Shown: positions 51,245 to 63,503, numbered from the stretch's first letter. The stretch: DNA of 64,000 nucleotides from Phycisphaerae bacterium (GCA_035275405.1 DATEMU010000008.1:62001-126000); one strand, 5' to 3'. Translations and numbers: made by a program. The notes: generated by a model from the letters alone, not told the origin.

Positions 51245-54200
51245 CTACGCCGTCGCCTTTTCTGTTTCCGCCTCCTGCGCCGTTCGATCGATCCGGTCTT
51301 GGTTTACTCCGCCGGCGTTTGATTCTGCCTCGCGGAGCGTTTCGCGAAGCCATTCGTGGAGTTTCCGATTTCGCGAGACGATGTCACCCAACATGGCCGG
51401 AGCCGGACGATCCGGCAACGCACCCGGGGCCGGCTTCAGTATATTGGCCTTGCTCCTGGTTGATGGCGGCGCATCCTTGAAACGGGCGGAATTGGTTCGC
51501 ATCCGTTCCACCGCGTGTTCGCCATTGCGTCCGCTCCCCAGTGCCGAACGAAGTCCATCGATTTCCTGAGGCACCGTCCGACACAGATTCTCCGCCTGAT
51601 CCAGCCGGCCGCGCAAACCTTCTATCCGCGCGTCCATGACGCCGTAAAGCTGTCGGATGATGCCCACAAGCTGGCCCACGCGGGTTGTGTGGCTGCGGAG
51701 TCCTTCGAGTCGTTCCTGTGCCAGCTCGCTGGCCTCGGCGATTTCTTGATTCTGCGCACGGGCGGCCGCTCCGGCGGCGCTGAGCTGCGTGATGACCGAT
51801 GAGAGCGACTTGGACAACTCGGCGAGCGCGGCCGTCTTCGCATTGGCCTCGTCAATGATCTCTTTGGGAAGGCGCAGCAGCGAATCCACTCGGCCCTCCG
51901 TCTCGCGGGCGTGTTGGATGATCCGCTCGGCGCGGGCCTGCGACTCGCGTTCAAACCGACCGGCTTCCTCGTAGAGCCGCGACGTCGTGGCATTGGCCAT
52001 CTCAATGAGCCGGGACGACTCGCTCCGGGCCTGATCGATGAGTCTCGCTGCTTCCTGGCGCGCCTCGCTCAACAGCGCCTTGGACTCCACGATCTGCTCA
52101 CGGACCTGTTCCCGGTCTTTACGCAGATCCGTTCGCAATTCCTGCAATTCACGCCGGGAATTCTCCGCCGCCGCATCCGCACGCCGGGCATCCTGTTCCA
52201 TTTGCTCGCGAAGGCGCTGGGCCGCTCCGCGGGCCTCGGCAAGGGCGATCGCCGCCTGTTCATTGGTGACGGCCGCCGCGGTTTGAGCCTGCGTCAGGAT
52301 ATCGGCGACCTGCAATTGCGCGGCATCAAATCGCGCCCGTGCGTCGTCGATGATCTGCTGCACGGCCGCCTTCGCGGAAACGACCCCCTCGCCAAAGCGA
52401 TGCTCCAGGCGTCCCATTCGATCGCACGACTGTTCCGTCTCCCCGCGAATCTGCGCCGCTTTTTCGTCAATCTGTTGCAGCAGTTCGGCAACGATGCCTT
52501 TCAGGCCCTCGACGCTTCGCGCAGCGCCGTTCCTCGCCTGATCGGCCAGTTCCTGGACGGCCTTCTCCGCCGCTGCGCCCCGGTCGTCGATCTGTCGTAA
52601 CAGCTCCCCGGTTGTTTCGTGGAGGCGACCGACACACTGTTTGGAGTCGGAGCGGACTTGATCAGCAAGTTCCCCGAGTTCGTTACAGGCCGCGGCGCCG
52701 CGCGCGTCGATCTGGTGCAGCAGCCCCGCGGCGGTCTCCTGGAAGCCCTCGACGCACCTTAGCGAGCCGGATTTCATTTGCTCGGCGAGTTCCACAAGGT
52801 CTCGCCGGGCTGTATCAGCCCGCTCGATCATCTGTTCCATGGCCACGCGGACCTGAGCAATTGAAGATTCGGATTGCTCGCGCAACAGGTCGCCGGCTTT
52901 CTTCGATTCTTTCAACGAATCCTGCAAGACCCGTTGCATCTCATGCAGGGCGGCCGTCACTTGCGCGGACAAGCCCTCAGATCGGCTCTCGATGTCCAGC
53001 CCCAACCGCGTGGCGGCCGCGATTCGGCGATCCAGCTCCGCTCGCGCCGCCTGGAGATCGGCGACCGCCTCGACACCGGCCTGATCAGCGACAGCCTTAA
53101 GGACTTCCGTCTTTTGGGCCACCGCTTCAGCCGCCGTCTCTATCTCCGTTCGCACGGTCTCAATTCTGGTTCGCTGCTCCTCAATGTGAGACGCCAGGTC
53201 GCGCTTGGCCGTTTCGACGCGCTTTTCCATCTCCTCGGCAAGTGAGCGCCTCGTTTGCCCATTGGCAACCATTTCATCCAAGAGCCTCCGCAATTCCGCA
53301 TGGGCGGCGGTCGTCTGCGCGGACAGGCCCTCGGATCGCCTTTCGAGGTCCATCCCGAGGCGCGTGGCCTCGGCTATTAGTCGATTCATTTCCGCCCGCG
53401 CCGCTTCAAGGTCGGTAGTCGCGCCCAGCTTGACCTGATCAGCAATTGCCCGAAGGCCCGCCACCTGCCGGGCCGCCCGTTGGGCCGTCTCCGTAAGGGC
53501 CGATCGAACACCCTCCACTTTTTTCCGTTGTTCCTCGATCTGTGTGGTGAGTTCGCGTTTGGCCGTTTCGACATGCCGATCGATCTCGTCGGTGAGTGCG
53601 CGTCGATCCCGCGCGTTCGTCGGCAGTTCGCACTGAATGCGGGTTAGCTCATCCTTGGCCGATGTCAGGGCCCTTTCGAAGAACGTTTGCGCGCGTTCGC
53701 AATCCGCCACCGCGTCACGTACCCGTCGCTCCAGGGAGCGCACGGATTCCTCCGCCGACCCTGTATCCAGGATGACTCGTTGCGGTGCATCGCTCCTAGC
53801 GGTGGGCGCGGCCGTCAATGGTTGCTGCCCCGTCACGCGCATGTTTTCGCTTGACGAAGCAGAGTTGGGTCCGCACGGGGCGACGACTTCCTCCACCATC
53901 GTTTCCGTGATCTTTTTCGCGGAGCGCGAGTAGGCGGCGAGCATCGCCCCATCACAAATCTGGTTGATGAGCCGGGGGATTCCCCCCGACGCGGCATACA
54001 CAGCGTTCAGCGCCGGGCGTTCAAATACCGTTTGGGCCTTTGGGATTCCCGCGACGCGGAGTCGATGGGTGATGTAGCCTTCCGTCAGTTCCCGCGACAA
54101 CGCCTTCAGGTGATACCTTCGAAAAAGGCGCTGGCGGAGCTGCTCCATTCCCGGCAACCCAAACGCGTCCTGCAACTCCGGCTGACCGAGGATCAGGACG

Positions 54201-54673
54201 GTCAGCAGCTTGGCGTCGTCTGCTTCGAGGTTGCCGAGCAAGCGCAGTTCCTCGAAGGACTCTGTCGTCAAATGCTGAGCCTCGTCGACAATGACGACCG
54301 CAAGACGATCCCGGGCGTATTGGTCGAGCAGGAACTCCTCCAGGGCGCGGGACATTTCCGGGGCCGACGCATCCGCCGCCACGCGGACATCGAACTCCCG
54401 GCAGATCGAAAACAAAAGTTCCCGGGGGCCGACGCGTGTATTGTGGACCACGGCGAATTTCGCCGAGCGCTCCAGACGCGACAACACCAGCCGGCTGACG
54501 AGCGTCTTTCCCGAACCGACTTCGCCCGTCAACAGCGCGAAGCCCTTGCGCTCCTGCGCCGCATAGACCAGCGAGGCGACGGCTTCTTCGTGATCCGGCG
54601 TATTGAAGAAAAAACGCGGATCCGGCGTGTTGTTGAACGGGCTGTACTTCAGGCCGAAGAAGTCGGTGTACAT
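51245..54673 (-). CDS. Exosortase-type AAA ATPase fused to a giant coiled-coil
   Basis: A 1142-residue protein. The first ~270 residues are an ExeA/XrtA-associated-type ATPase (opening YTDFFGLKYSPFNNTPDPRF, Walker A GEVGSGKT at 50-57, Walker B VVIVDEAQ with D130-E131, and a GGIPRLINQICDGAM sensor helix). The typical family member ends near 350 residues. Here it continues with about 850 residues of charged heptad coil. These contain a ~96-residue duplication around EATRLGMDLERRSEGLSAQ and AATRLGLDIESRSEGLSAQ, and three ~38-residue units like VEGFQETAAGLLHQIDARGA. It lies divergently upstream of the polysaccharide export genes. A role in driving or organising polysaccharide export is inferred. 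Confidence 0.85.
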   Translation of the reverse strand: MYTDFFGLKYSPFNNTPDPRFFFNTPDHEEAVASLVYAAQERKGFALLTGEVGSGKTLVSRLVLSRLERSAKFAVVHNTRVGPRELLFSICREFDVRVAADASAPEMSRALEEFLLDQYARDRLAVVIVDEAQHLTTESFEELRLLGNLEADDAKLLTVLILGQPELQDAFGLPGMEQLRQRLFRRYHLKALSRELTEGYITHRLRVAGIPKAQTVFERPALNAVYAASGGIPRLINQICDGAMLAAYSRSAKKITETMVEEVVAPCGPNSASSSENMRVTGQQPLTAAPTARSDAPQRVILDTGSAEESVRSLERRVRDAVADCERAQTFFERALTSAKDELTRIQCELPTNARDRRALTDEIDRHVETAKRELTTQIEEQRKKVEGVRSALTETAQRAARQVAGLRAIADQVKLGATTDLEAARAEMNRLIAEATRLGMDLERRSEGLSAQTTAAHAELRRLLDEMVANGQTRRSLAEEMEKRVETAKRDLASHIEEQRTRIETVRTEIETAAEAVAQKTEVLKAVADQAGVEAVADLQAARAELDRRIAAATRLGLDIESRSEGLSAQVTAALHEMQRVLQDSLKESKKAGDLLREQSESSIAQVRVAMEQMIERADTARRDLVELAEQMKSGSLRCVEGFQETAAGLLHQIDARGAAACNELGELADQVRSDSKQCVGRLHETTGELLRQIDDRGAAAEKAVQELADQARNGAARSVEGLKGIVAELLQQIDEKAAQIRGETEQSCDRMGRLEHRFGEGVVSAKAAVQQIIDDARARFDAAQLQVADILTQAQTAAAVTNEQAAIALAEARGAAQRLREQMEQDARRADAAAENSRRELQELRTDLRKDREQVREQIVESKALLSEARQEAARLIDQARSESSRLIEMANATTSRLYEEAGRFERESQARAERIIQHARETEGRVDSLLRLPKEIIDEANAKTAALAELSKSLSSVITQLSAAGAAARAQNQEIAEASELAQERLEGLRSHTTRVGQLVGIIRQLYGVMDARIEGLRGRLDQAENLCRTVPQEIDGLRSALGSGRNGEHAVERMRTNSARFKDAPPSTRSKANILKPAPGALPDRPAPAMLGDIVSRNRKLHEWLRETLREAESNAGGVNQDRIDRTAQEAETEKATA

Positions 54674-55013
54674 GGTTCACTGGCTCCAAGGCGCGCTGGC
54701 GCGGCACGGTGCGGTCGGATGACCGGTGGCGCGGAAATCGCGCGGGCAGCGTTGTCGCTGTGCGTCCGTTATCGGAAGTCCGAGAAACCTCCCTTGATGG
54801 CGGGACGCGCCGCGGACCGGTCGCGCGACAATTGCCGCTTTGTCCGAGAATAGGCCTCTCCATTGATCGGCCGAGAATCCGCCTAATTGGAGTCCCGCTT
54901 CAGCGATTTATTCAGTCGGTAGGGTCCCCACCCGATAAACGCCCGGCGAGGGGTTGAAGTCCGTGGCCCGAGGTCGGGCGGCGGGCCATCGAAAGAAGCA
55001 TTGGGAATACGCG
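54674..55013. other. Divergent promoter region of the polysaccharide locus
   Basis: About 340 bases separate the minus-strand ATPase gene from the plus-strand export genes. Both promoters should lie here. No repeat and no convincing box pair is seen; an open frame at 54954 extends into the next gene but lacks a ribosome site. Confidence 0.4.
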
Positions 55014-55790
55014 ATGCCGCCTATCGGCGAAATCCTCATCCCTGCGTCCGCGCCCCTGGCGTTGCTGCGACGGCGCCTCGCAGGCGGAGCGTCGGCATGG
55101 TTGGGCGTGCTCGCGCTGGGCGCTGCGTGCGGCCCTTCCGATCGCGAGATTGACTCCTTTGTTCGCTCCTGGGAGACCTCCGTTTCGGCGGCCGACTATC
55201 AGGTGCAGCCGCCCGACGCATTGGAGATCAGTTCGGCGCAGGCCAGAGAGATCGACGGAGAAATTCAGACGGTCCGACAGGACGGAAAGATTACGCTTCG
55301 ACTCCTGGGGGACGTGAAAGTAGCGGGCATGACGCCGATCGAGATTTCCCGCAAACTCGAATCGCTGCTGCAACGGTACTATGTTGATCCGCAGGTCAAT
55401 GTTCGCCTGAAGGAGGCGAACAGCAAACAATATTATGTCTTCGGGCAGGTCGATCGCGAGGGTCCATTTACCTGCACCGGCCGGGATACGCTGCTCAGCG
55501 CGCTGGCCCTCGCGCAGCCGACGTTTATCGCACTCAAATCCAGTGTCAAAGTGATCCGTCCGAACCGGGACCGCGAGAAGCGCCACGTCATGACCGTCGA
55601 CGCTGACCGAATCATCAAGAAGGGCAAGCTCGAGGACAACGTCTACCTTCAGGACGGGGACATTGTATACGTGCCGCCGACGCCGCTTGGCTGGCTGGGC
55701 TTGAAGCTCAGTGCGCTGTTCTACCCGGTGCAACAGACCCCGATTTACGGGTACGCGCCTGCACGATTGGCGAGCGGATCAGACGATTAA
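55014..55790 (+). CDS. Wza-type polysaccharide export lipoprotein
   Basis: A 258-residue outer-membrane-linked exporter. The N-terminus has a lipoprotein signal ending LALGAAC, followed by the polysaccharide-export domain (DYQVQPPDALEISSA; GKITLRLLGDVKVAGMTPIE; YYVDPQVNVRLKEANSKQYY) and an SLBB-like strand pair (YVFGQVDREGPFTCTGRDTL; DNVYLQDGDIVYVPPTPLGW). It would form the outer-membrane channel of the exopolysaccharide machine with the Wzz protein encoded 32 bases downstream. The ATG at 55014 is preferred over an upstream frame since it starts close to the lipobox. Confidence 0.9.
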   Translation: MPPIGEILIPASAPLALLRRRLAGGASAWLGVLALGAACGPSDREIDSFVRSWETSVSAADYQVQPPDALEISSAQAREIDGEIQTVRQDGKITLRLLGDVKVAGMTPIEISRKLESLLQRYYVDPQVNVRLKEANSKQYYVFGQVDREGPFTCTGRDTLLSALALAQPTFIALKSSVKVIRPNRDREKRHVMTVDADRIIKKGKLEDNVYLQDGDIVYVPPTPLGWLGLKLSALFYPVQQTPIYGYAPARLASGSDD

Positions 55791-55822: not shown

Positions 55823-57529
55823 ATGCAGCACCACATTGAAGAATTCTCCGTCGCGGATGTTCGCCACACCCTGGCAGAGGTCTGGCGCGTGATCGCGGCG
55901 CGGCGATGGTGCTTTCTCTTTCCATTTCTGGCCGTCGCGACGCTGGCCTTCACCGCGTCGCTCTGGGTTCCACGGAAATATTCCGCGACCACGGTCATCA
56001 AGCGCGAGCACGATCCCGTCCTGGCCAGCATGATGGGCAAGGCGTGGTCCGAGCCCTACGCCGAAATTCGCCAGCGAATGGCCGCCGAACTGACCCACCC
56101 CGACCTGATTCAGCACGTTCTGGCCGAACTGGACCTGCCGGAGGGGCTTTCGCGCTTTGAGAATGGTGAACTCACGCCGGATGCCCAGGCGGCACAAAAG
56201 GAAATGGCCGAGGAGATCGCGCAAGGTCTGGCCACGAAATCCCTCGAGGCGTCGCCCAATCGCGATGTCGTCGCGCTGACACTCGTCCTGTCGGACCGGT
56301 CGCACCAGGCCGCGATTCTCCGCGAACTGCGCGATCAGTATATCGCCCGCACCAAGAAGCGAACGATCGAGGTCATGCGCGGGGTTGAAGCGTTCCTGCT
56401 CACTCAATCGGAGCGATGCAGAACCGAACTGGCCGAGCATCAACGAAATCTTGTTGAATTGGAGTACCAATTTCCCGGCATTGACCCCGTGGCCACTGAT
56501 CCGACGCTGGCGCAGGAAGCCGTGCTCCTGCACGAGAAGGTGGACCTCGAACGGCAGCTTCAAGCGCTGGAGGCGCAATTCCAGCAGTGGACCGACCGCC
56601 TGGCGCACTCCTGTGTAACGGCGAACGGGACTCCGGACGGCCGACCGATACGGCTCCCGCAAGCGCCGAATCCGCAATATCTCGAACTTCGCCAGCAGAT
56701 CGAGAAGCTCGAGCGTGAACTCACTGACGCAAAGTCCGTGCGCATGATGACGAACGAGCACCCCATTGTCGTGGAACTGCATCGGTCGCTGGCCGCCCGC
56801 CGGTCCGAGCTTGGCCAAACGCCCGTGACCGTGGATCGATCGGCCCCGGTAATTTCAGGGCCGGATGGTCCAATGGCGGCGGCACAGAATGCCGAATTTC
56901 AACTCGCGGATCTCGAGGCGAGATTGCAGAGCGCGGAGAGTCGACATCGAGAAGTGTCTTATCAGATCGCCAAGATTCAGGATGGGAGAATCCTTGCAGG
57001 CGGACGACGCGAAGAATACCTCGGCATCAAACAGAAATCCGACCGGGCGCGCGAGGAAATGGCGACCTGGACTCAACACCTCGGGCCGCTCCGCCGCGTC
57101 GTCACGCTCGAGAGCGACAATCGCGGCATTCACTTCAGCACCGTTCAGGACGTCGTCGCCGAGGCGCGGCCTCAATCGCCCGACGCGCTGCTGGTCATGG
57201 CCGCATGCCTGGCGATCGGCGCCGCCGCCGGCGGGCTCTCAGTCCTGGTGCGCGAGCTGATGGATCGATCATTCCGAACGGTCAAGCACCTCTCCACCTC
57301 GCTGGGCATTCCCGTCATCGAGAGCATCGATGAGATCATGACGCAAACGTCGCATCGCCGGCGCCTGATTCGAACGCTCGTGACGGTCCCTGCCGCGGCG
57401 GCGCTGATGCTGTCCGTTACGTCGGCAACCGGAGTGATGGCGTACCTGAGTCTGAAGGATCCCATTGGGTACGAACGCGTAAAGTCCACTCCCACGAGCG
57501 TGGTGGAAGTCCTTTTGGAACAGAAATAG
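55823..57529 (+). CDS. Wzz/GumC chain-length determinant protein
   Basis: A 568-residue inner-membrane protein. An N-terminal helix (CFLFPFLAVATLAFTASLWV) is followed by a long periplasmic coiled-coil domain (about 60-445) and a second helix (LLVMAACLAIGAAAGGLSVL). A third hydrophobic stretch near the C-terminus (TLVTVPAAAALMLSVTSATG) is less usual. It lacks the Walker motifs of fused Wzc proteins; the kinase is a separate gene (57556-58491). It controls polymer length and links Wza to the cytosol. Confidence 0.9.
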   Translation: MQHHIEEFSVADVRHTLAEVWRVIAARRWCFLFPFLAVATLAFTASLWVPRKYSATTVIKREHDPVLASMMGKAWSEPYAEIRQRMAAELTHPDLIQHVLAELDLPEGLSRFENGELTPDAQAAQKEMAEEIAQGLATKSLEASPNRDVVALTLVLSDRSHQAAILRELRDQYIARTKKRTIEVMRGVEAFLLTQSERCRTELAEHQRNLVELEYQFPGIDPVATDPTLAQEAVLLHEKVDLERQLQALEAQFQQWTDRLAHSCVTANGTPDGRPIRLPQAPNPQYLELRQQIEKLERELTDAKSVRMMTNEHPIVVELHRSLAARRSELGQTPVTVDRSAPVISGPDGPMAAAQNAEFQLADLEARLQSAESRHREVSYQIAKIQDGRILAGGRREEYLGIKQKSDRAREEMATWTQHLGPLRRVVTLESDNRGIHFSTVQDVVAEARPQSPDALLVMAACLAIGAAAGGLSVLVRELMDRSFRTVKHLSTSLGIPVIESIDEIMTQTSHRRRLIRTLVTVPAAAALMLSVTSATGVMAYLSLKDPIGYERVKSTPTSVVEVLLEQK

Positions 57530-57555: not shown

Positions 57556-58491
57556 ATGGGACATCTCGCGGACGCACTCAAAAAAGCGGAACAAGAGCGG
57601 GGCCGAACGCGACACGCCGGAATGTCGAGGGAGTCGACCCCGACGCTGACTCTGGCCCCCCCGTCGGCGGATCGCCTGCGCGATGCCGTCCATTGGACGC
57701 CGATTGCACGCGGATCAATGGAATCGCCTGTACTTCCCCTGGGCGGGTCGATCCTTAATGAAGTCGTCGTTCCGCTCCGTTCCGCCGGCCCCCCTTGTCG
57801 GCCGGCCTGGACCATCCACCCGTCCGTCGTCGCCTATCACGATCGCACCTCTTCCATCACCGAGCAATTCCGCGCCGTTCGCACCTGGCTTCTCGCGCAT
57901 GCCGCGCCCGGACAATCGACCTGCCTGGCCATTACCAGCAGTGTCCCCGGCGAGGGCAAGAGCGTCACCACCGCCAACCTTGCCGTCGCGATGGCGGAGG
58001 TGCGGCAGATGCGCGTGCTGGCGGTCGATTGCGACTTTCGGCAAGGTGGACTGGGAAGGCTCCTGCGTACGACGCCGGGGCCCGGGCTGGCGGATGTGAT
58101 CGCCGGTCGCGCCGCCCTGCGCGAGGCGATACGTTCCACACCGTTGGACAATTTCTTTGTGCTTCCGGCCGGCACGTGCGGGGATATCGGGCCGGCGGAG
58201 CTGCTGAACTGCACCGAGGCGGCCCGCGTCTTCGAGGAGATCCGCGACAGCTACGATTGCGCCCTGGTCGATACACCTCCCGTCCAACAGGTGTCGGACG
58301 TCGGGGTAATTGGCGGCCTCTGCACGGGCGTCGTCATGGTGGTGCGCATGAATCGCACGGATTCCCAGGTGGTCCGGCAATCCTTGCGCTGGTTGCAGTC
58401 GAACAATGTGAAAGTACTCGGCTGCATCGCCGCGGCATGCAGCCTCAAGGCCTCGCTCAACAGTTACCGACCGACCGACGACATTGAATAA
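57556..58491 (+). CDS. CpsD/CapB-type tyrosine-kinase-like ATPase
   Basis: A 311-residue cytosolic partner of the Wzz protein. Walker A is SSVPGEGKSVTTANLA, Walker A' is VLAVDCDFRQGGLG and Walker B is CALVDTPPV, the set of bacterial tyrosine kinases. The C-terminus (LNSYRPTDDIE) has only one tyrosine rather than the usual tyrosine cluster, so autophosphorylation may be reduced. The N-terminal ~85 residues are a weakly conserved linker. Located 26 bases after wzz. Confidence 0.9.
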   Translation: MGHLADALKKAEQERGRTRHAGMSRESTPTLTLAPPSADRLRDAVHWTPIARGSMESPVLPLGGSILNEVVVPLRSAGPPCRPAWTIHPSVVAYHDRTSSITEQFRAVRTWLLAHAAPGQSTCLAITSSVPGEGKSVTTANLAVAMAEVRQMRVLAVDCDFRQGGLGRLLRTTPGPGLADVIAGRAALREAIRSTPLDNFFVLPAGTCGDIGPAELLNCTEAARVFEEIRDSYDCALVDTPPVQQVSDVGVIGGLCTGVVMVVRMNRTDSQVVRQSLRWLQSNNVKVLGCIAAACSLKASLNSYRPTDDIE

Positions 58492-58533
58492 GCCGGCGGG
58501 GTGTCGGCATCGCGGGGGGTGGAACGAACTTCG

Positions 58534-59568
58534 ATGCAAATCCGCCTCCTCGACGCTTCGTCCGAGACCCGCTACGCGGAATACGTCGCGCGCCGCGCCG
58601 ATGCAACCTTCTTTCACGAACTCGGCTGGAAGCGGGCCGTCGAGCGGGCGTTCGGCCATGAGTCATGGTACTTGACGGCGGAACGTGATCGAGAAATAGT
58701 CGGCATATTGCCACTGTTCCAGGTAAACAGCCTCCTGGCGGGTCGGCTCCTGATCAGTGTCCCCTATGCGACGTATGGAGGAGTACTGACTGACGACTCG
58801 GACGCTGCACATGCGCTCTTCAGCGAGGCGAAGTCGATCGCCGGACGTGTCGGCGCTCGGTCCATTGAGTTTCGATCCCTCCGCGCTGCGGACCCATCTT
58901 TACACACCGAGTCCAGCCACGTCACCTTTACAAAAGCGCTTCCGACTCGTCCCGATGAAGTGCTCGGCTCATTTCCTCGCAAGGCCCGCGCTGCTGCCCG
59001 TCGCGCCGCGGAGCGCTACGCCCTCACAACACAGTTCGGCCCGCATTTTCTCCCAGACGTGTGGAGACTTTACGCCCGGTCGATGCGGCGACTAGGCTCG
59101 CCCAACTATCCTCGGAAATTCTTTGAAGGGCTGTTGGCTTCGGAGCCGGAACGCTGCGTCTGCCAACTCGTTCGGTGCGGGGAGCGGCCGGTCGCGGGGT
59201 TGCTCACCTTTCTGCATCGCGACACCGTCATGCCGTACTTCGCGGGCATCGACGAGCGCCGCGAGATCTACGGCCTCTCGCACTATCTCTACGCCGAATC
59301 GATGCGCTGGGGCGTTCAGCAAGGGTTTGCCCGCTACGACTTCGGGCGCAGCCGGATCGACAATGCGGGCGCCTACGACTTCAAGCGACTGTGCGGCTTT
59401 GAGCCACAGCCTTTGGAGTACCAGACCTACATCGCGCCGGGTCGTAGCGCGCCGGATCTCGCCGCCGGATCCCCGCGTTGGGCGATGGCTCGACGGATGT
59501 GGAAACATCTTCCGCTGGCGGTCGCACGACCGTTAGGCGGGTGGCTGGCTCGGTCCATCCCCGGTTGA
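58534..59568 (+). CDS. FemAB-type protein of the exosortase/PEP-CTERM system
   Basis: A 344-residue GNAT-fold protein of the FemAB family (TIGR03019-like, exosortase-associated). Segments include ATFFHELGWKRAVERAFGHE, GILPLFQVNSLLAGRLLISV, YATYGGVLTD, and LSHYLYAESMRWGVQQGF with RYDFGRSRIDNAGAYDFKRL near the end. Exosortase-linked FemAB proteins are believed to add amino-acid or acyl groups to the polysaccharide or its carrier; unproven. The ATG at 58534 is used; a GTG at 58501 adds 11 residues. Confidence 0.87.
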   Translation: MQIRLLDASSETRYAEYVARRADATFFHELGWKRAVERAFGHESWYLTAERDREIVGILPLFQVNSLLAGRLLISVPYATYGGVLTDDSDAAHALFSEAKSIAGRVGARSIEFRSLRAADPSLHTESSHVTFTKALPTRPDEVLGSFPRKARAAARRAAERYALTTQFGPHFLPDVWRLYARSMRRLGSPNYPRKFFEGLLASEPERCVCQLVRCGERPVAGLLTFLHRDTVMPYFAGIDERREIYGLSHYLYAESMRWGVQQGFARYDFGRSRIDNAGAYDFKRLCGFEPQPLEYQTYIAPGRSAPDLAAGSPRWAMARRMWKHLPLAVARPLGGWLARSIPG

Positions 59569-59585
59569 TTCGGAGTATCCCCAGC

Positions 59586-60848
59586 GTGCATTCACGGCAG
59601 AACATCCTCTTCCTGACGCATCGCGTCCCTTTTCCCTCGAACAAGGGCGACAAGATCCGCACGTTTCACCAGATGGAGTATCTGGCCGCGCGGCACAACG
59701 TCTACTGCGCGTGCTTTGTCGATCGGCCCGCCGATAGGGTCCACGCCATCGCCCTTCGCCAATGGTGTAAGGGCGTTATCGCCATCCCGTGGGACCGACG
59801 AACGGCTATTCGCCGCGCCGTGAAGGGATTTTGGAAAGGGCGCAGCCTGACGTGCGCCGCGTACGACGATCCCACGATGTGGCATCACCTGCGGGAGTGG
59901 GCGCGCGCTATTCAGTTTGACGCCGTGACAGCATTCTCGGGGTGCATGGCCCCCTACGCTTGGGCCTTTCCCGCGGGCAGGCGCATCCTGGACCTGTGCG
60001 ACATCGACAGCCGGAAGTGGCACGACTACGCCGGCGACTCCCTATTTCCGCTTTCTACCGCCTACCGCGCCGAGGGGCGACGACTGGCGGCCTTTGAGCG
60101 GCGGTGCGCCGATCATTTTGATTCCACGATCGTGGCGACACCGCGCGAGCGCGAGTTGATCGACCCAGAACAACGCCAGCGGACGTTGTATATCGTTCCG
60201 AATGGAGTCGACCTCCCGGCCCTCCCGCCGGAACCTCCCTCGGCCAATCCACCGATCGTGACCTTTGTCGGTGCGATGAACTATCGGCCCAATGTCGATG
60301 GCGTGCTCTGGTTTGTCCGGCGTGTCTGGCCGCGTATTGTGCAGGCGACGCCTGACGCGCGGTTTGTGATGGTCGGTGCAGACCCTGCCCTCCTTGTCCG
60401 CCGTCTTTCCCGGTTTAAGAACATCGTCGTCACCGGCGAAGTGCCTGGCGTGCAACCCTACCTGCGCGCCTCACGCGTCGTCATCGCCCCGATGCCGATC
60501 GTTCGCGGCATCCCCAACAAAGTGCTCGAGGCCATGGCCATGGCGCGGCCGGTTGTCGGGACACCCGGCGTCGCGGCCGCGTTGGGTGCGCAGTCGGGCC
60601 GGCACCTGATGACCGGCGAGTCGCCTGAGGCGTTCGCCGACCATGTGATAGCCCTGCTGACCGATAGCAAACAATGCGACCGGATCGCCGCCGCCGGCTA
60701 TCGCTTCGTCGACATTCACTACTGCTGGAAGGATGCACTGACGGATTATGAACGCGCCGTCGCAGGGCCGGCGATCTCTGCGGCTCGACCGTCTGTGCTG
60801 TTACAAAGGGCTTCCAATTCCGCCCGATCGGCCGTGGGAGTCCGATAA
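59586..60848 (+). CDS. Exosortase-type GT4 glycosyltransferase (TIGR03087-like)
   Basis: A 420-residue GT-B glycosyltransferase. The GTG start at 59586 has GGAG ten bases upstream. N-terminal domain: NILFLTHRVPFPSNKGDKIR and ILDLCDIDSRKWHDYAGDSL. C-terminal domain: YIVPNGVDLPALP, PIVTFVGAMNYRPNVDGVLW, VVIAPMPIVRGIPNKVLEAM. These match the family found next to exosortase loci. It would add a sugar to the growing lipid-linked unit. Stop and start are 17 bases from the FemAB gene, so co-transcribed. Confidence 0.9.
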   Translation: MHSRQNILFLTHRVPFPSNKGDKIRTFHQMEYLAARHNVYCACFVDRPADRVHAIALRQWCKGVIAIPWDRRTAIRRAVKGFWKGRSLTCAAYDDPTMWHHLREWARAIQFDAVTAFSGCMAPYAWAFPAGRRILDLCDIDSRKWHDYAGDSLFPLSTAYRAEGRRLAAFERRCADHFDSTIVATPRERELIDPEQRQRTLYIVPNGVDLPALPPEPPSANPPIVTFVGAMNYRPNVDGVLWFVRRVWPRIVQATPDARFVMVGADPALLVRRLSRFKNIVVTGEVPGVQPYLRASRVVIAPMPIVRGIPNKVLEAMAMARPVVGTPGVAAALGAQSGRHLMTGESPEAFADHVIALLTDSKQCDRIAAAGYRFVDIHYCWKDALTDYERAVAGPAISAARPSVLLQRASNSARSAVGVR

Positions 60849-60969
60849 AGTACAACTCCATCCCGCGCTTCTTATCGCTTTAGTCGCGTCCCGCCCCGCT
60901 CGATACAACAGACACGAACAGTTTTAGGACGATTCGCGCGGGCTGTTGTTCCAGGCCCTCGCGACCGGA

Positions 60970-62502
60970 ATGGAGTCCCGTTTGTCCGCACGCGCCAAGT
61001 CAACCCGTTCTGCCGTCGACGTCTCTTCGCGCCCCAGGCGGCCCGTGCGAATCCCGCCCCGGCTTCGCCAACCCGCCTTAACGGACGAGCCGCCAATCGG
61101 TGCAGCGCCCGTCGACAATTCCGGACGGCGACACAAGGTGCTCATCATTGCCAGTCGCTTTCCGCCGGTGGCTTCCGTCGGGGCCACCCGCGTTCGGAAA
61201 TTCGTGAAATTTCTGCCGGAGTTCGGGTGGGACCCGGTCGTCATCACCGGGGCCGCGCGAAAAGGTGACTTAACGCTGCACGACGCCCGCCGCGCATCGG
61301 ATTTCGAAAGTCTCGCCGACCTGCCCGCCGGCGTACCGGTCCATCGACTGGGCGCGGCGCTCGATCATTGGCCGACCTACCTGGCCCGCGCGGCGGGGCA
61401 GCGCCTCGCGCCGTGGACATGCGCACTCGGCGTAGACGAGCTTCGCTGGTGCAGCGCGTTGAAATGGCGTTTCGAGAAGCTGCATGACGCACTGGCCTTC
61501 CCCGATCGCGGAATATGGCGTCTGCCCTCGACGGTTCGGCTGGCCTTGCGGCTCCACCGGCAATACCGCTTTGACGCGATTTTCTCCACCGGGATGCCCT
61601 TCAGCGATCACGTCACCGCGATGGTCATTCAATCGCTTATTCGCCGCCCGTGGTTGGCGGACTTTCGCGACCCCTGGGTCGAGTACATCCACTGGCAACA
61701 ATGGCAATCTGATGCGGGCCGGCGACTGACGGCCGCTGCCGAGTCGGCCGTCGTCCGGCGAGCGGCCTTTGTCATCAGCGTCAACGATCCCATGACGCGC
61801 CGCTTTGCGGCCCGCTATCATGGGGTGGGCCCCGCAAAATTCGTCACGATCGCCAATGGTTACGATCCGGCCGATTTTCCGGCGTCAGTGCCCACGCCCC
61901 CGACCACGGGCTTCCGACTGCTTTACGCCGGTTCGCTGTACGGCGCGAGGACGCCACATACCCTGCTGGCAGCGTTCCGCCAGTTTCTTGACGACACGCC
62001 CGGCAGTCGGCGTCACGCCTTCATCGATTTCGCCGGTCGCCCCGGGCCGCACGTCGACGAACTGTTGCGAGAGTCCGATGCGGGCAACGTCCGCTACCTC
62101 GGCATGTTGCCGCACGGCAAGACGCTGGAAGCCATGGCGTCGGCGGACGTCAATGTGATCATCCTGCCCAATCTTCCCGGCAGTGCCAACGATTCCACCG
62201 CCAAGCTCTACGAATGCCTGGGCAGCAATCGAGCCATTCTGGCCGCCGTCCCGATCGACGGCGCGGCGGCGAATGAGCTGCGCCGGTTTGACGGAGTGAG
62301 TATCTGTGATCCGGATTGTGTCGATCAGATCAGCCGGGCGATCGGGGAGTATTACCAGGCGTGGCTTTCGAACGACTTGACCGTCCGGCGCCCGGCTTCA
62401 TTGCTCGCCACGGTGACGCGCCGACATCAGACCGGACAACTCGCGGAGCGGCTTGACGCCGCCGTCCGCGCCAGCCGATGCACACTGGAGGTGCGACCAT
62501 GA
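60970..62502 (+). CDS. GT4-type glycosyltransferase
   Basis: A 510-residue GT-B protein with an N-terminal basic extension (about 1-55, low complexity; the start could be later). Core: KVLIIASRFPPVASVGATRV, RRPWLADFRDPWVEY, KFVTIANGYDPADF, FRLLYAGSLYGARTPHTLLA and NVNVIILP-like strand with NDSTAKLYECLGSNRAILAA. Together with the preceding gene it gives the locus two glycosyltransferases. Its stop overlaps the start of the deacetylase gene by four bases. The donor sugar is unknown. Confidence 0.85.
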   Translation: MESRLSARAKSTRSAVDVSSRPRRPVRIPPRLRQPALTDEPPIGAAPVDNSGRRHKVLIIASRFPPVASVGATRVRKFVKFLPEFGWDPVVITGAARKGDLTLHDARRASDFESLADLPAGVPVHRLGAALDHWPTYLARAAGQRLAPWTCALGVDELRWCSALKWRFEKLHDALAFPDRGIWRLPSTVRLALRLHRQYRFDAIFSTGMPFSDHVTAMVIQSLIRRPWLADFRDPWVEYIHWQQWQSDAGRRLTAAAESAVVRRAAFVISVNDPMTRRFAARYHGVGPAKFVTIANGYDPADFPASVPTPPTTGFRLLYAGSLYGARTPHTLLAAFRQFLDDTPGSRRHAFIDFAGRPGPHVDELLRESDAGNVRYLGMLPHGKTLEAMASADVNVIILPNLPGSANDSTAKLYECLGSNRAILAAVPIDGAAANELRRFDGVSICDPDCVDQISRAIGEYYQAWLSNDLTVRRPASLLATVTRRHQTGQLAERLDAAVRASRCTLEVRP

Positions 62503-63503
62503 ATCCGCTGATGACGACCGCCGGTTTCGATACGTTGACGGGCCGATTGATCCGGCGCATGCGCCGCTTGCGGAGCGAGACCTGCGTCACGATCCTGACC
62601 TACCACAGCGTCGACCACACCGAGACGATATTCAATTCCAACGTCCGTCACGACCCGGCGGAGTTCGAACGGCAAATGGATTATCTCGCGGAGAACTATT
62701 CGCCGCTGAGCTTGCGCGAGTGGATCGAACGGGCCCATCGAAACGACCCGCCGCATCGCGGCGTCGTCGTAACGCTGGACGACGGATACGCCGATTCTTT
62801 ACGGCAGGCGCTCCCCATTGCGTTCCGGCGGCGCATTCCGGTCACGATCTTTCCGGTGACGGCGGTCATCGGAAACCGCGACCTCCTGTGGCAGCACAAA
62901 CTGGCATGGCTGGTCGCGCATCATCATGAAGCCCGAGTCCTGGATGCGCTGATCTCGGCGGGGTATCCACCGGTCCCGGAGAATCAAAACGTCGAAGCGT
63001 ATGTCCGCGCGCAATTCCGCGCTGATACGCCGGAGATCCTTGAATCCCTCTTGAAGAAGTTGGGGCAATCCGGCGCGTCGATCGCCGCCGCCGAGCGACT
63101 TTACCTGGAACCGGAAGAGATCGCCCAGGCCGACCGGGACCTCGTCGAATTCGGCAACCACACGCATACCCATCCTTTTCTGTCGGCCCTCAGCGTGGAT
63201 GAACAACGCGAGGAAATTATTTTGGCCCGAGATGCCCTTTCCGCGCTGACCGGGTACGCACCGATCGCGCTGGCGTATCCGTTCGGTCTCAAGCGTCACT
63301 ACAACGCTGCGTCCTCTCAAATCGCGAGAGAAACGGGTCATCGCGTCGCCATGGATATGCGCCGCCGCATCAATCGGCCGGATGGCGATCCGTTTGAATT
63401 GAGCCGTAAGCCGGCGACGACCGGTCCCCATGATCACTTTGAGCGCATCCTGGAAGATTGGCCGGACAACGCCGAACCGCCGCCCATGGAGGGCCGCGCA
63501 TGA
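62499..63503 (+). CDS. Polysaccharide deacetylase
   Basis: A 334-residue NodB-type carbohydrate esterase. The fold is seen in TCVTILTYHSVDH, GVVVTLDDGYADSLRQALP (motif with the two metal/base aspartates), HTHTHPFLS (metal histidines) and a late LAYPFGLKRHYN. It likely removes acetyl groups from the exopolysaccharide or its precursor. GGAGG at 62487-62491 lies seven bases ahead of the ATG, and the ATGA overlap with the upstream gene shows translational coupling. Confidence 0.9.
   Translation: MNPLMTTAGFDTLTGRLIRRMRRLRSETCVTILTYHSVDHTETIFNSNVRHDPAEFERQMDYLAENYSPLSLREWIERAHRNDPPHRGVVVTLDDGYADSLRQALPIAFRRRIPVTIFPVTAVIGNRDLLWQHKLAWLVAHHHEARVLDALISAGYPPVPENQNVEAYVRAQFRADTPEILESLLKKLGQSGASIAAAERLYLEPEEIAQADRDLVEFGNHTHTHPFLSALSVDEQREEIILARDALSALTGYAPIALAYPFGLKRHYNAASSQIARETGHRVAMDMRRRINRPDGDPFELSRKPATTGPHDHFERILEDWPDNAEPPPMEGRA

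Follow-up and report, generated by a model that had tools for sequence, protein, structure and literature searches.

An XrtA-type exopolysaccharide-locus ATPase with a giant helical tail and a conserved far end in a Phycisphaerae bacterium

Why should the ATPase of a polysaccharide export locus carry a helical tail of 877 residues? The question is raised by one open reading frame (ORF) in the window, that is, the whole 64,000-nucleotide stretch of DNA analysed here (Phycisphaerae bacterium, GCA_035275405.1 DATEMU010000008.1:62001-126000). A preliminary description of the window, made by a model from the sequence, had regarded the product as an exosortase-type ATPase fused to repetitive coiled coil, and had suggested that it serves as a scaffold or as a length ruler for the export machine. 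The domain layout, the distribution and selection of the gene, and its relatives in two sister families were investigated, and these readings were weighed against several others.

The ATPase head and its export locus

The ORF (51245-54673, minus strand) comprises 1142 codons in one uninterrupted frame. Residues 1-265 form the ATPase head and are followed by the tail, 47% of which consists of Ala, Arg, Glu and Gln. The features of the protein are listed below; f1 denotes the family-level sample of 17 genomes.

51245-54673, minus: complete ORF of 1142 aa with AAA+ head, long helical rod, C-terminal cap and terminal helix; matching architecture in 15 other f1 genomes
53879-54673, minus: ATPase head, residues 1-265 (TIGR03015 / AAA_22; ExeA-MuB-TnsC-Cdc6-like); NCBIfam E 2e-75, Pfam E 2e-23
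54503-54526, minus: Walker A GEVGSGKT, residues 50-57; G50, G53, G55, K56 and T57 invariant in the alignment
54275-54298, minus: Walker B VVIVDEAQ, residues 126-133, with the catalytic E131 present (alignment)
53789-53878, minus: non-helical linker joining head and rod, residues 266-295, from the secondary structure of the model; weakly conserved
51902-53788, minus: helical rod, residues 296-924, 3.55-3.65 residues per turn (model and periodicity)
52868-53704, minus: 118-residue repeat, residues 324-602, 2.4 copies (protein self-match and DNA)
52301-52840, minus: 40-residue repeat, residues 612-791, about 4.5 copies (protein self-match and DNA)
51536-51871, minus: conserved C-terminal cap, residues 935-1046, core RVGQLVGIIRQLYG, heptad periodicity (conservation in f1)
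51398-51535, minus: Pro/Ala-rich linker of variable length, residues 1047-1092 (alignment and model)
51335-51391, minus: conserved terminal helix, residues 1095-1113, LGDIVSRNRKLHEWLRETL (motif in 16 of 16 f1 members; model helix 1095-1119)

The head aligned to positions 1-264 of the 269 of TIGR03015, the XrtA/PEP-CTERM system-associated ATPase (pepcterm_ATPase), with 253.5 bits, under the curated cut-off of 324.5, which was passed by none of the 114 genomes of the order. Together with the helical tail, this full-model match bears out the preliminary reading as an exosortase-type ATPase: the protein is an XrtA-type exopolysaccharide-locus ATPase with a hugely enlarged coiled-coil-like tail. 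TIGR03015 frames in the phylum sample mostly run to 270-490 codons, whereas the ORF protein has a further 877 residues of tail (rod, cap and terminal helix). Sensor 2 (GIPRLINQICD) and the candidate arginine-finger region were intact and nearly invariant, and in every f1 member with the gene the motifs of Walker A and Walker B, like the sensor/arginine motifs, were intact.

The closest solved sequences and folds were those of the AAA+ filament formers MuB and TnsC and of Cdc6/Orc. Sequence matches in the PDB ranged from E 8e-4 to 0.07 (MuB, 8e-4; TnsC, 0.016), and fold matches to Cdc6/Orc/TnsC/MuB reached a Z of about 10 with a high rmsd, the head model having a pLDDT of 68; the fold search returned nothing closer than this general AAA+ ORC/TnsC group. 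Those proteins act on DNA, whereas the ORF protein has no DNA link, and the likeness is confined to the AAA+ core. SMC/Rad50 proteins also combine an ATPase with a long coiled coil, but SMC HMMs matched the coiled coil only (26.5 bits versus a cut-off of 567), and an SMC head is an ABC domain divided between the two termini, in contrast to the single N-terminal AAA+ head found here. A related AAA ATPase is ExeA/GspA of type II secretion. ExeA, which multimerises, requires its ATPase domain to form a complex and to assemble the outer-membrane export pore (PMC4098917). In ExeA a single transmembrane segment follows the ATPase domain, and a peptidoglycan-binding domain lies in the periplasm; according to Pfam and hydropathy, the ORF protein has neither. 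No membrane-spanning segment was detected in any tail, the peak 19-residue hydropathy in the tail of the ORF protein being 0.87. Considering this difference from ExeA, the ORF protein would work from the cytoplasm, and its sequence indicates that it is most likely soluble and cytoplasmic.

The genes next to it are as follows.

54674-54953, no strand: intergenic region between the divergent ATPase and Wza genes; head-to-head order in 15 of 15 other f1 loci
54954-55790, plus: Wza/Poly_export polysaccharide export protein (Pfam/NCBIfam)
55823-57529, plus: Wzz/XrtA chain-length determinant-like protein (Pfam/NCBIfam)
57556-58491, plus: CpsD/Wzc-type tyrosine autokinase (Pfam/NCBIfam)
58501-59568, plus: XrtA-associated FemAB protein, TIGR03019 (306.9 bits; cut-off 260.35)
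59478-60848, plus: XrtA-associated glycosyltransferase stp1, TIGR03087 (380.3 bits; cut-off 316.65)
60946-62502, plus: GT4-type glycosyltransferase (Pfam)
62478-63503, plus: polysaccharide deacetylase (Pfam)

The family matches agree with the Wza, Wzz and CpsD neighbours named in the preliminary description. FemAB, stp1, Wza, Wzz and the tyrosine kinase are the locus partners of the TIGR03015 ATPase, and since FemAB and stp1 exceeded their cut-offs, the locus is genuinely of the XrtA type. An exosortase over the TIGR02602 cut-off was found in the genome on a contig (C13) separate from that of the ORF, together with 13 PEP-CTERM matches. The order of the genes was the same in all 15 other f1 loci, with the ATPase and Wza genes head-to-head and Wzz, CpsD, FemAB and stp1 following Wza. 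The second glycosyltransferase and the deacetylase lay downstream in most of them (where the retrieved stretch extends that far), and the divergent ATPase/Wza pairing also occurred in most remaining loci of the order. A search of the intergenic region for a sigma-54-like promoter, such as XrtA regulators might lead one to expect, gave 2 weak sites versus 3.1 in shuffles.

The rod and the conserved far end

In the predicted model the tail contains six long helices within residues 296-1046, then a disordered stretch, and a last helix at 1095-1119. Structure prediction gave helix throughout the rod, though confidence in the full-length model was low (pLDDT 52, pTM 0.25; the tail was modelled on five sequences). 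Because this model is poor, the extended rod rests on the periodicity of the sequence; fully helical and extended, it is predicted to span about 110 nm, and 84-207 nm across f1.

All self-alignment diagonals were scanned for repeats, and heptad-preserving shuffles (composition kept per heptad position) reached a maximum score of 58. The best ungapped self-match, at an offset of 118, paired residues 324-484 with 442-602 (43% identity, score 328); the second, at an offset of 40, paired 612-751 with 652-791 (36% identity, score 183). Both repeats were also visible in the DNA (67-68% identity). The repetition noticed in the preliminary description is therefore real, but its two copies of about 96 residues and three of about 38 have to be replaced by 2.4 copies of 118 and about 4.5 of 40. 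An 11-residue offset was additionally detected across residues 785-989. Internal duplications were also found in relatives, of 98 residues at 75% identity (L037), 191 at 64% (L067) and 29 at 70% (L051). Their varied sizes indicate that lengthening of the tail by internal duplication, as had been suggested for this protein, is general.

The gene was present in 16 of the 17 f1 genomes, the exception being a 75%-complete assembly. The ATPase with its rod was uninterrupted in all of them, at 960-1790 aa (frames of 1024-1828 codons) and with no internal stops, and tail length varied 2.2-fold (696-1524 residues). Across f1, identity to the ORF protein was only 6-30% through most of the rod, versus 40-81% for the head. 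Comparison of close relatives showed strong purifying selection on the rod, with dN/dS of 0.07 (L039/L041), 0.04 (L043/L044) and 0.16 (L051/L058). No gap columns occurred over 454 rod codons of the first pair or 995 of the second, and the rods of the third pair differed by 29 gap columns, the size of the local repeat unit. Thus, an artefact of assembly or frame, or a tail limited to one strain, was ruled out by the 16 genomes and the rod dN/dS values, and the same architecture, when sought in other planctomycete loci, was present in the 15 other f1 genomes.

Beyond the rod the sequence is conserved again. Identity of the cap to the ORF protein averaged 67% at residues 991-1020 across f1, with a core consensus of HTxRVGQLVGIIRQLYGxMDARI and a heptad periodicity of 3.50 residues per turn. 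Among solved structures, the cap gave nothing but chance coiled-coil matches. The terminal motif LGxIVxRNxKLNxWL was found in all 16 f1 members, as LG[ED][IL]VxRNxKLNxWL with minor substitutions. The preliminary description had overlooked both elements. Considering that the cap and terminal helix are conserved, the molecule is two-ended and not simply a motor on a plain rod.

The terminal helix, with its KLNxWLK, resembles the RLNSWLRK of the membrane-targeting sequence of FtsA, although the host proteins are unrelated. Its core RNxKLNxWLKE scored 25.6 against the C-terminus of E. coli FtsA (WIKRLNSWLRK), the maximum among 892 background C-termini being 20.8; this comparison was post hoc, run after the likeness had been spotted. 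The helix is also less amphipathic and less charged than that of FtsA (hydrophobic moment 0.36-0.50 versus 0.53-0.70; net charge 0 to +4, mostly +1, versus +3 to +4). For these reasons, lipid binding by the terminal helix is treated as hypothetical.

Sister families with another rod and with a split form

In a tree of the heads, the export loci of f1 and of two further families, f5 and f8, formed one clade each. The f5 proteins, from the same order, had heads 51-55% identical and tails of 836-1150 residues. Their rods showed a classical heptad (3.51 residues per turn) with 28-, 56- and 112-residue repeats, whereas f1 rods had 3.56-3.60 residues per turn and 18- and 36-residue repeats. The C-terminal region of f5 was conserved and of its own type, most members ending in [IV]xWPxxR, and had no detectable similarity to the f1 cap. 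The f5 tails are as long as those of f1 while differing in period and having unrelated ends, which suggests that distance counts for more than the sequence of the rod.

In f8, the ATPase of the export locus had a shorter tail (roughly 480-750 codons overall) and intact catalytic motifs, and most f8 genomes contained a second frame of 1200-2180 codons elsewhere. By hmmsearch, nine of these second proteins, taken full-length, carried a C-terminal relative of the f1 cap, and neither reversed decoys nor f5 export proteins were matched in the same search. Moreover, hhalign of the f8 cap against the f1 cap gave a probability of 95.9 and E 5e-9, with 31% identity over 67 columns. In most heads of the second proteins, DE of Walker B was changed to DQ (L095, L096, L100, L102 and L106, also L071, L103 and L104), and in three proteins the ATPase head was wholly missing (L098, L099 and L101). 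In AAA+ proteins, a DE to DQ change in Walker B usually keeps ATP binding and stops hydrolysis. The loci of these giant-rod paralogues had no export genes, and their neighbours were varied and uninformative as functional clues. The rod need not, therefore, be specific to polysaccharide. By the logic of Rosetta-stone proteins, a catalytic head and a rod with cap that are joined in f1 and separate in f8 would act together, and the sequences thus suggest that these two parts work together.

A two-ended tether and its rivals

We propose, with a probability of about 0.5, that this AAA+ ATPase, encoded at the XrtA exopolysaccharide locus, serves in the cytoplasm as a long two-ended tether or scaffold. 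Judging from ExeA and from the kinship with the ring- and filament-forming MuB, TnsC and Cdc6, the head may self-assemble with ATP, and it would act on the Wza-Wzz-CpsD export machine from the side of the inner membrane. The helical rod would be a spacer between the head and a second docking site and may multimerise via the heptad cap. Past the flexible linker, the cap and terminal helix may bind this second site, a membrane or a partner protein, so that several export machines could be gathered, or kept at a fixed position in the cell. The proposal is based on the architecture and its conservation, the intact ATPase motifs, the lack of membrane segments, the selection acting on the rod, the conserved C-terminal elements and the conserved gene order. 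Considering that the same design occurs in every f1 genome with the gene, the protein is probably a tether or scaffold, not a ruler or an artefact. What speaks against the tether is that the rod, at 3.58-3.60 residues per turn, lacks the periodicity of a classical two-stranded coiled coil, so that the tail might instead be folded back into a bundle, and that the head scores under the curated TIGR03015 cut-off, as in the whole order.

A narrower form, in which the second site is lipid, is a special case of the tether. Here the terminal helix would be an FtsA-like amphipathic membrane-targeting sequence, and a membrane-bound layer or filament would concentrate the export machines. The score of the terminal core against FtsA, above every background C-terminus, agrees with it, as does the position of the helix near the C-terminus after a disordered linker, as in FtsA. 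However, the moment and charge lie under those of FtsA, the likeness was found post hoc, the conserved polar N and K suit a protein contact, and the C-termini of f5 and f8 carry other motifs; we regard this form as rather doubtful. Another view begins from the rod: rod and cap would assemble into filaments or bundles with a role in the shape or organisation of the cell, with the head an optional regulator and the export locus one client. It accommodates the f8 relatives that keep rod and cap with a DQ head or none, in loci without export genes. It is nevertheless unlikely, since the head motifs are intact in nearly all export loci of f1, f5 and f8, the head is far better conserved than the rod, and the gene order with Wza is fixed.

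The ruler of the preliminary description, a gauge of chain length for the polysaccharide or of length for the export machine, is not supported. Rod length is indeed locally fixed (at dS 0.3-0.7, alignments of 454-995 rod codons are free of gap columns) and shifts by steps of a repeat unit, and a Wzz chain-length gene lies in the locus. But a protein with no membrane segment cannot measure anything outside the cytoplasm, and short-tailed homologues serve similar loci in f8. In f1, moreover, tail length varies 2.2-fold while Wzz length is steady (rho 0.14, p 0.61), and no correlation of tail length with the length of Wzz, Wza or CpsD was found; the chance that the protein is a ruler is very slight. 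Neutral elaboration, in which the tail grew by duplication and function is not tied to its length, would account for a rod that is near-random between genera (6-30% identity) and for the common recent duplications. It fits poorly with short-range purifying selection (dN/dS 0.04-0.16), the absence of gaps, the conserved ends beyond the rod and the long tail in every f1 member with the gene, and is improbable.

The kinds of head and locus described here are already known. The giant tail, the two conserved ends and the split form are new, in that no description of them was found in a literature search made outside most subscription journals. That search, light on subscription journals, gave no mention of TIGR03015, nor, with most such journals outside it, any work linking exosortase, planctomycetes, polysaccharide and ATPase, and this ATPase is absent from the 2006 PEP-CTERM paper. 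More broadly, the AAA+/giant-helical-rod proteins may constitute a hitherto unrecognised class that planctomycetes of this order use as a cytoplasmic framework, in which catalytic members organise export, DQ or headless paralogues are structural rods, and families have been lengthened with different periodicities and docking ends; we offer this generalisation tentatively, as somewhat unlikely in this full form.

Little is known about where in the cell Wza/Wzz-type export machines are located and how they are grouped, and the cell organisation of planctomycetes is unusual. The annotation TIGR03015 hides a large structural protein. With a catalytic AAA+ ATPase, a predicted rod of 84-207 nm and a conserved far end, this protein is a candidate long-range cytoplasmic organiser of polysaccharide export, and the occurrence in nature of a short catalytic form beside a separate DQ or headless rod makes the idea of a tether genetically testable.

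The exosortase and genes around the window ATPase

Two genes adjoin the ATPase gene of the window, and a third encodes a predicted protein that is likely a multihaem cytochrome c, considering its at least seven CxxCH motifs.

window:47311-48564 (+), likely multihaem cytochrome c
window:49956-50513 (+), NUDIX hydrolase, adjoining
window:50505-51158 (-), 217-aa protein, adjoining

The two adjoining genes are convergent and overlapping. The 217-aa product matched no Pfam family, and by eye its sequence looks NUDIX-like. The single exosortase found in the window's own genome was located on a separate contig (C13:70239-70952, -), outside the window's polysaccharide locus. The Wzz gene of one relative was found in two overlapping frames (L043:12220-13961), and this split was likely caused by a frameshift or sequencing error.

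Rod proteins with and without a head

Very long AAA+/rod proteins were encoded apart from export genes at two loci. Three others encode headless coiled-coil proteins of ~825-865 aa, each with a C-terminal cap that is a relative of the window protein's cap.

L067:9001-15804, AAA+/rod, 2267 aa
L070:8917-12366, AAA+/rod, 1149 aa
L098:4528-7002 (-), headless
L099:5925-8480 (+), headless
L101:9187-11781 (-), headless

Directly after each AAA+/rod gene, with no gap, is a gene for one of two related 211-216-aa proteins, for which no Pfam family was matched. The headless proteins may represent a split form of the head-rod fusion.

Tail ends and Walker B motifs in relatives

The tails of sister family f5 (L051, L052, L055-L059) end in a short conserved motif, roughly [IV]xWPxxR and often RTH, which follows f5's own conserved region and differs from that of the window family. 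A short relative (375 aa; L035:7078-8202, +) has a degenerate Walker B, VENAH. In the heads of the f8 non-export giant-rod ATPase paralogues (L095, L096, L100, L102, L103, L104, L106, and L071), Walker B DQ replaces DE; thus, these heads are predicted to bind ATP without hydrolyzing it.
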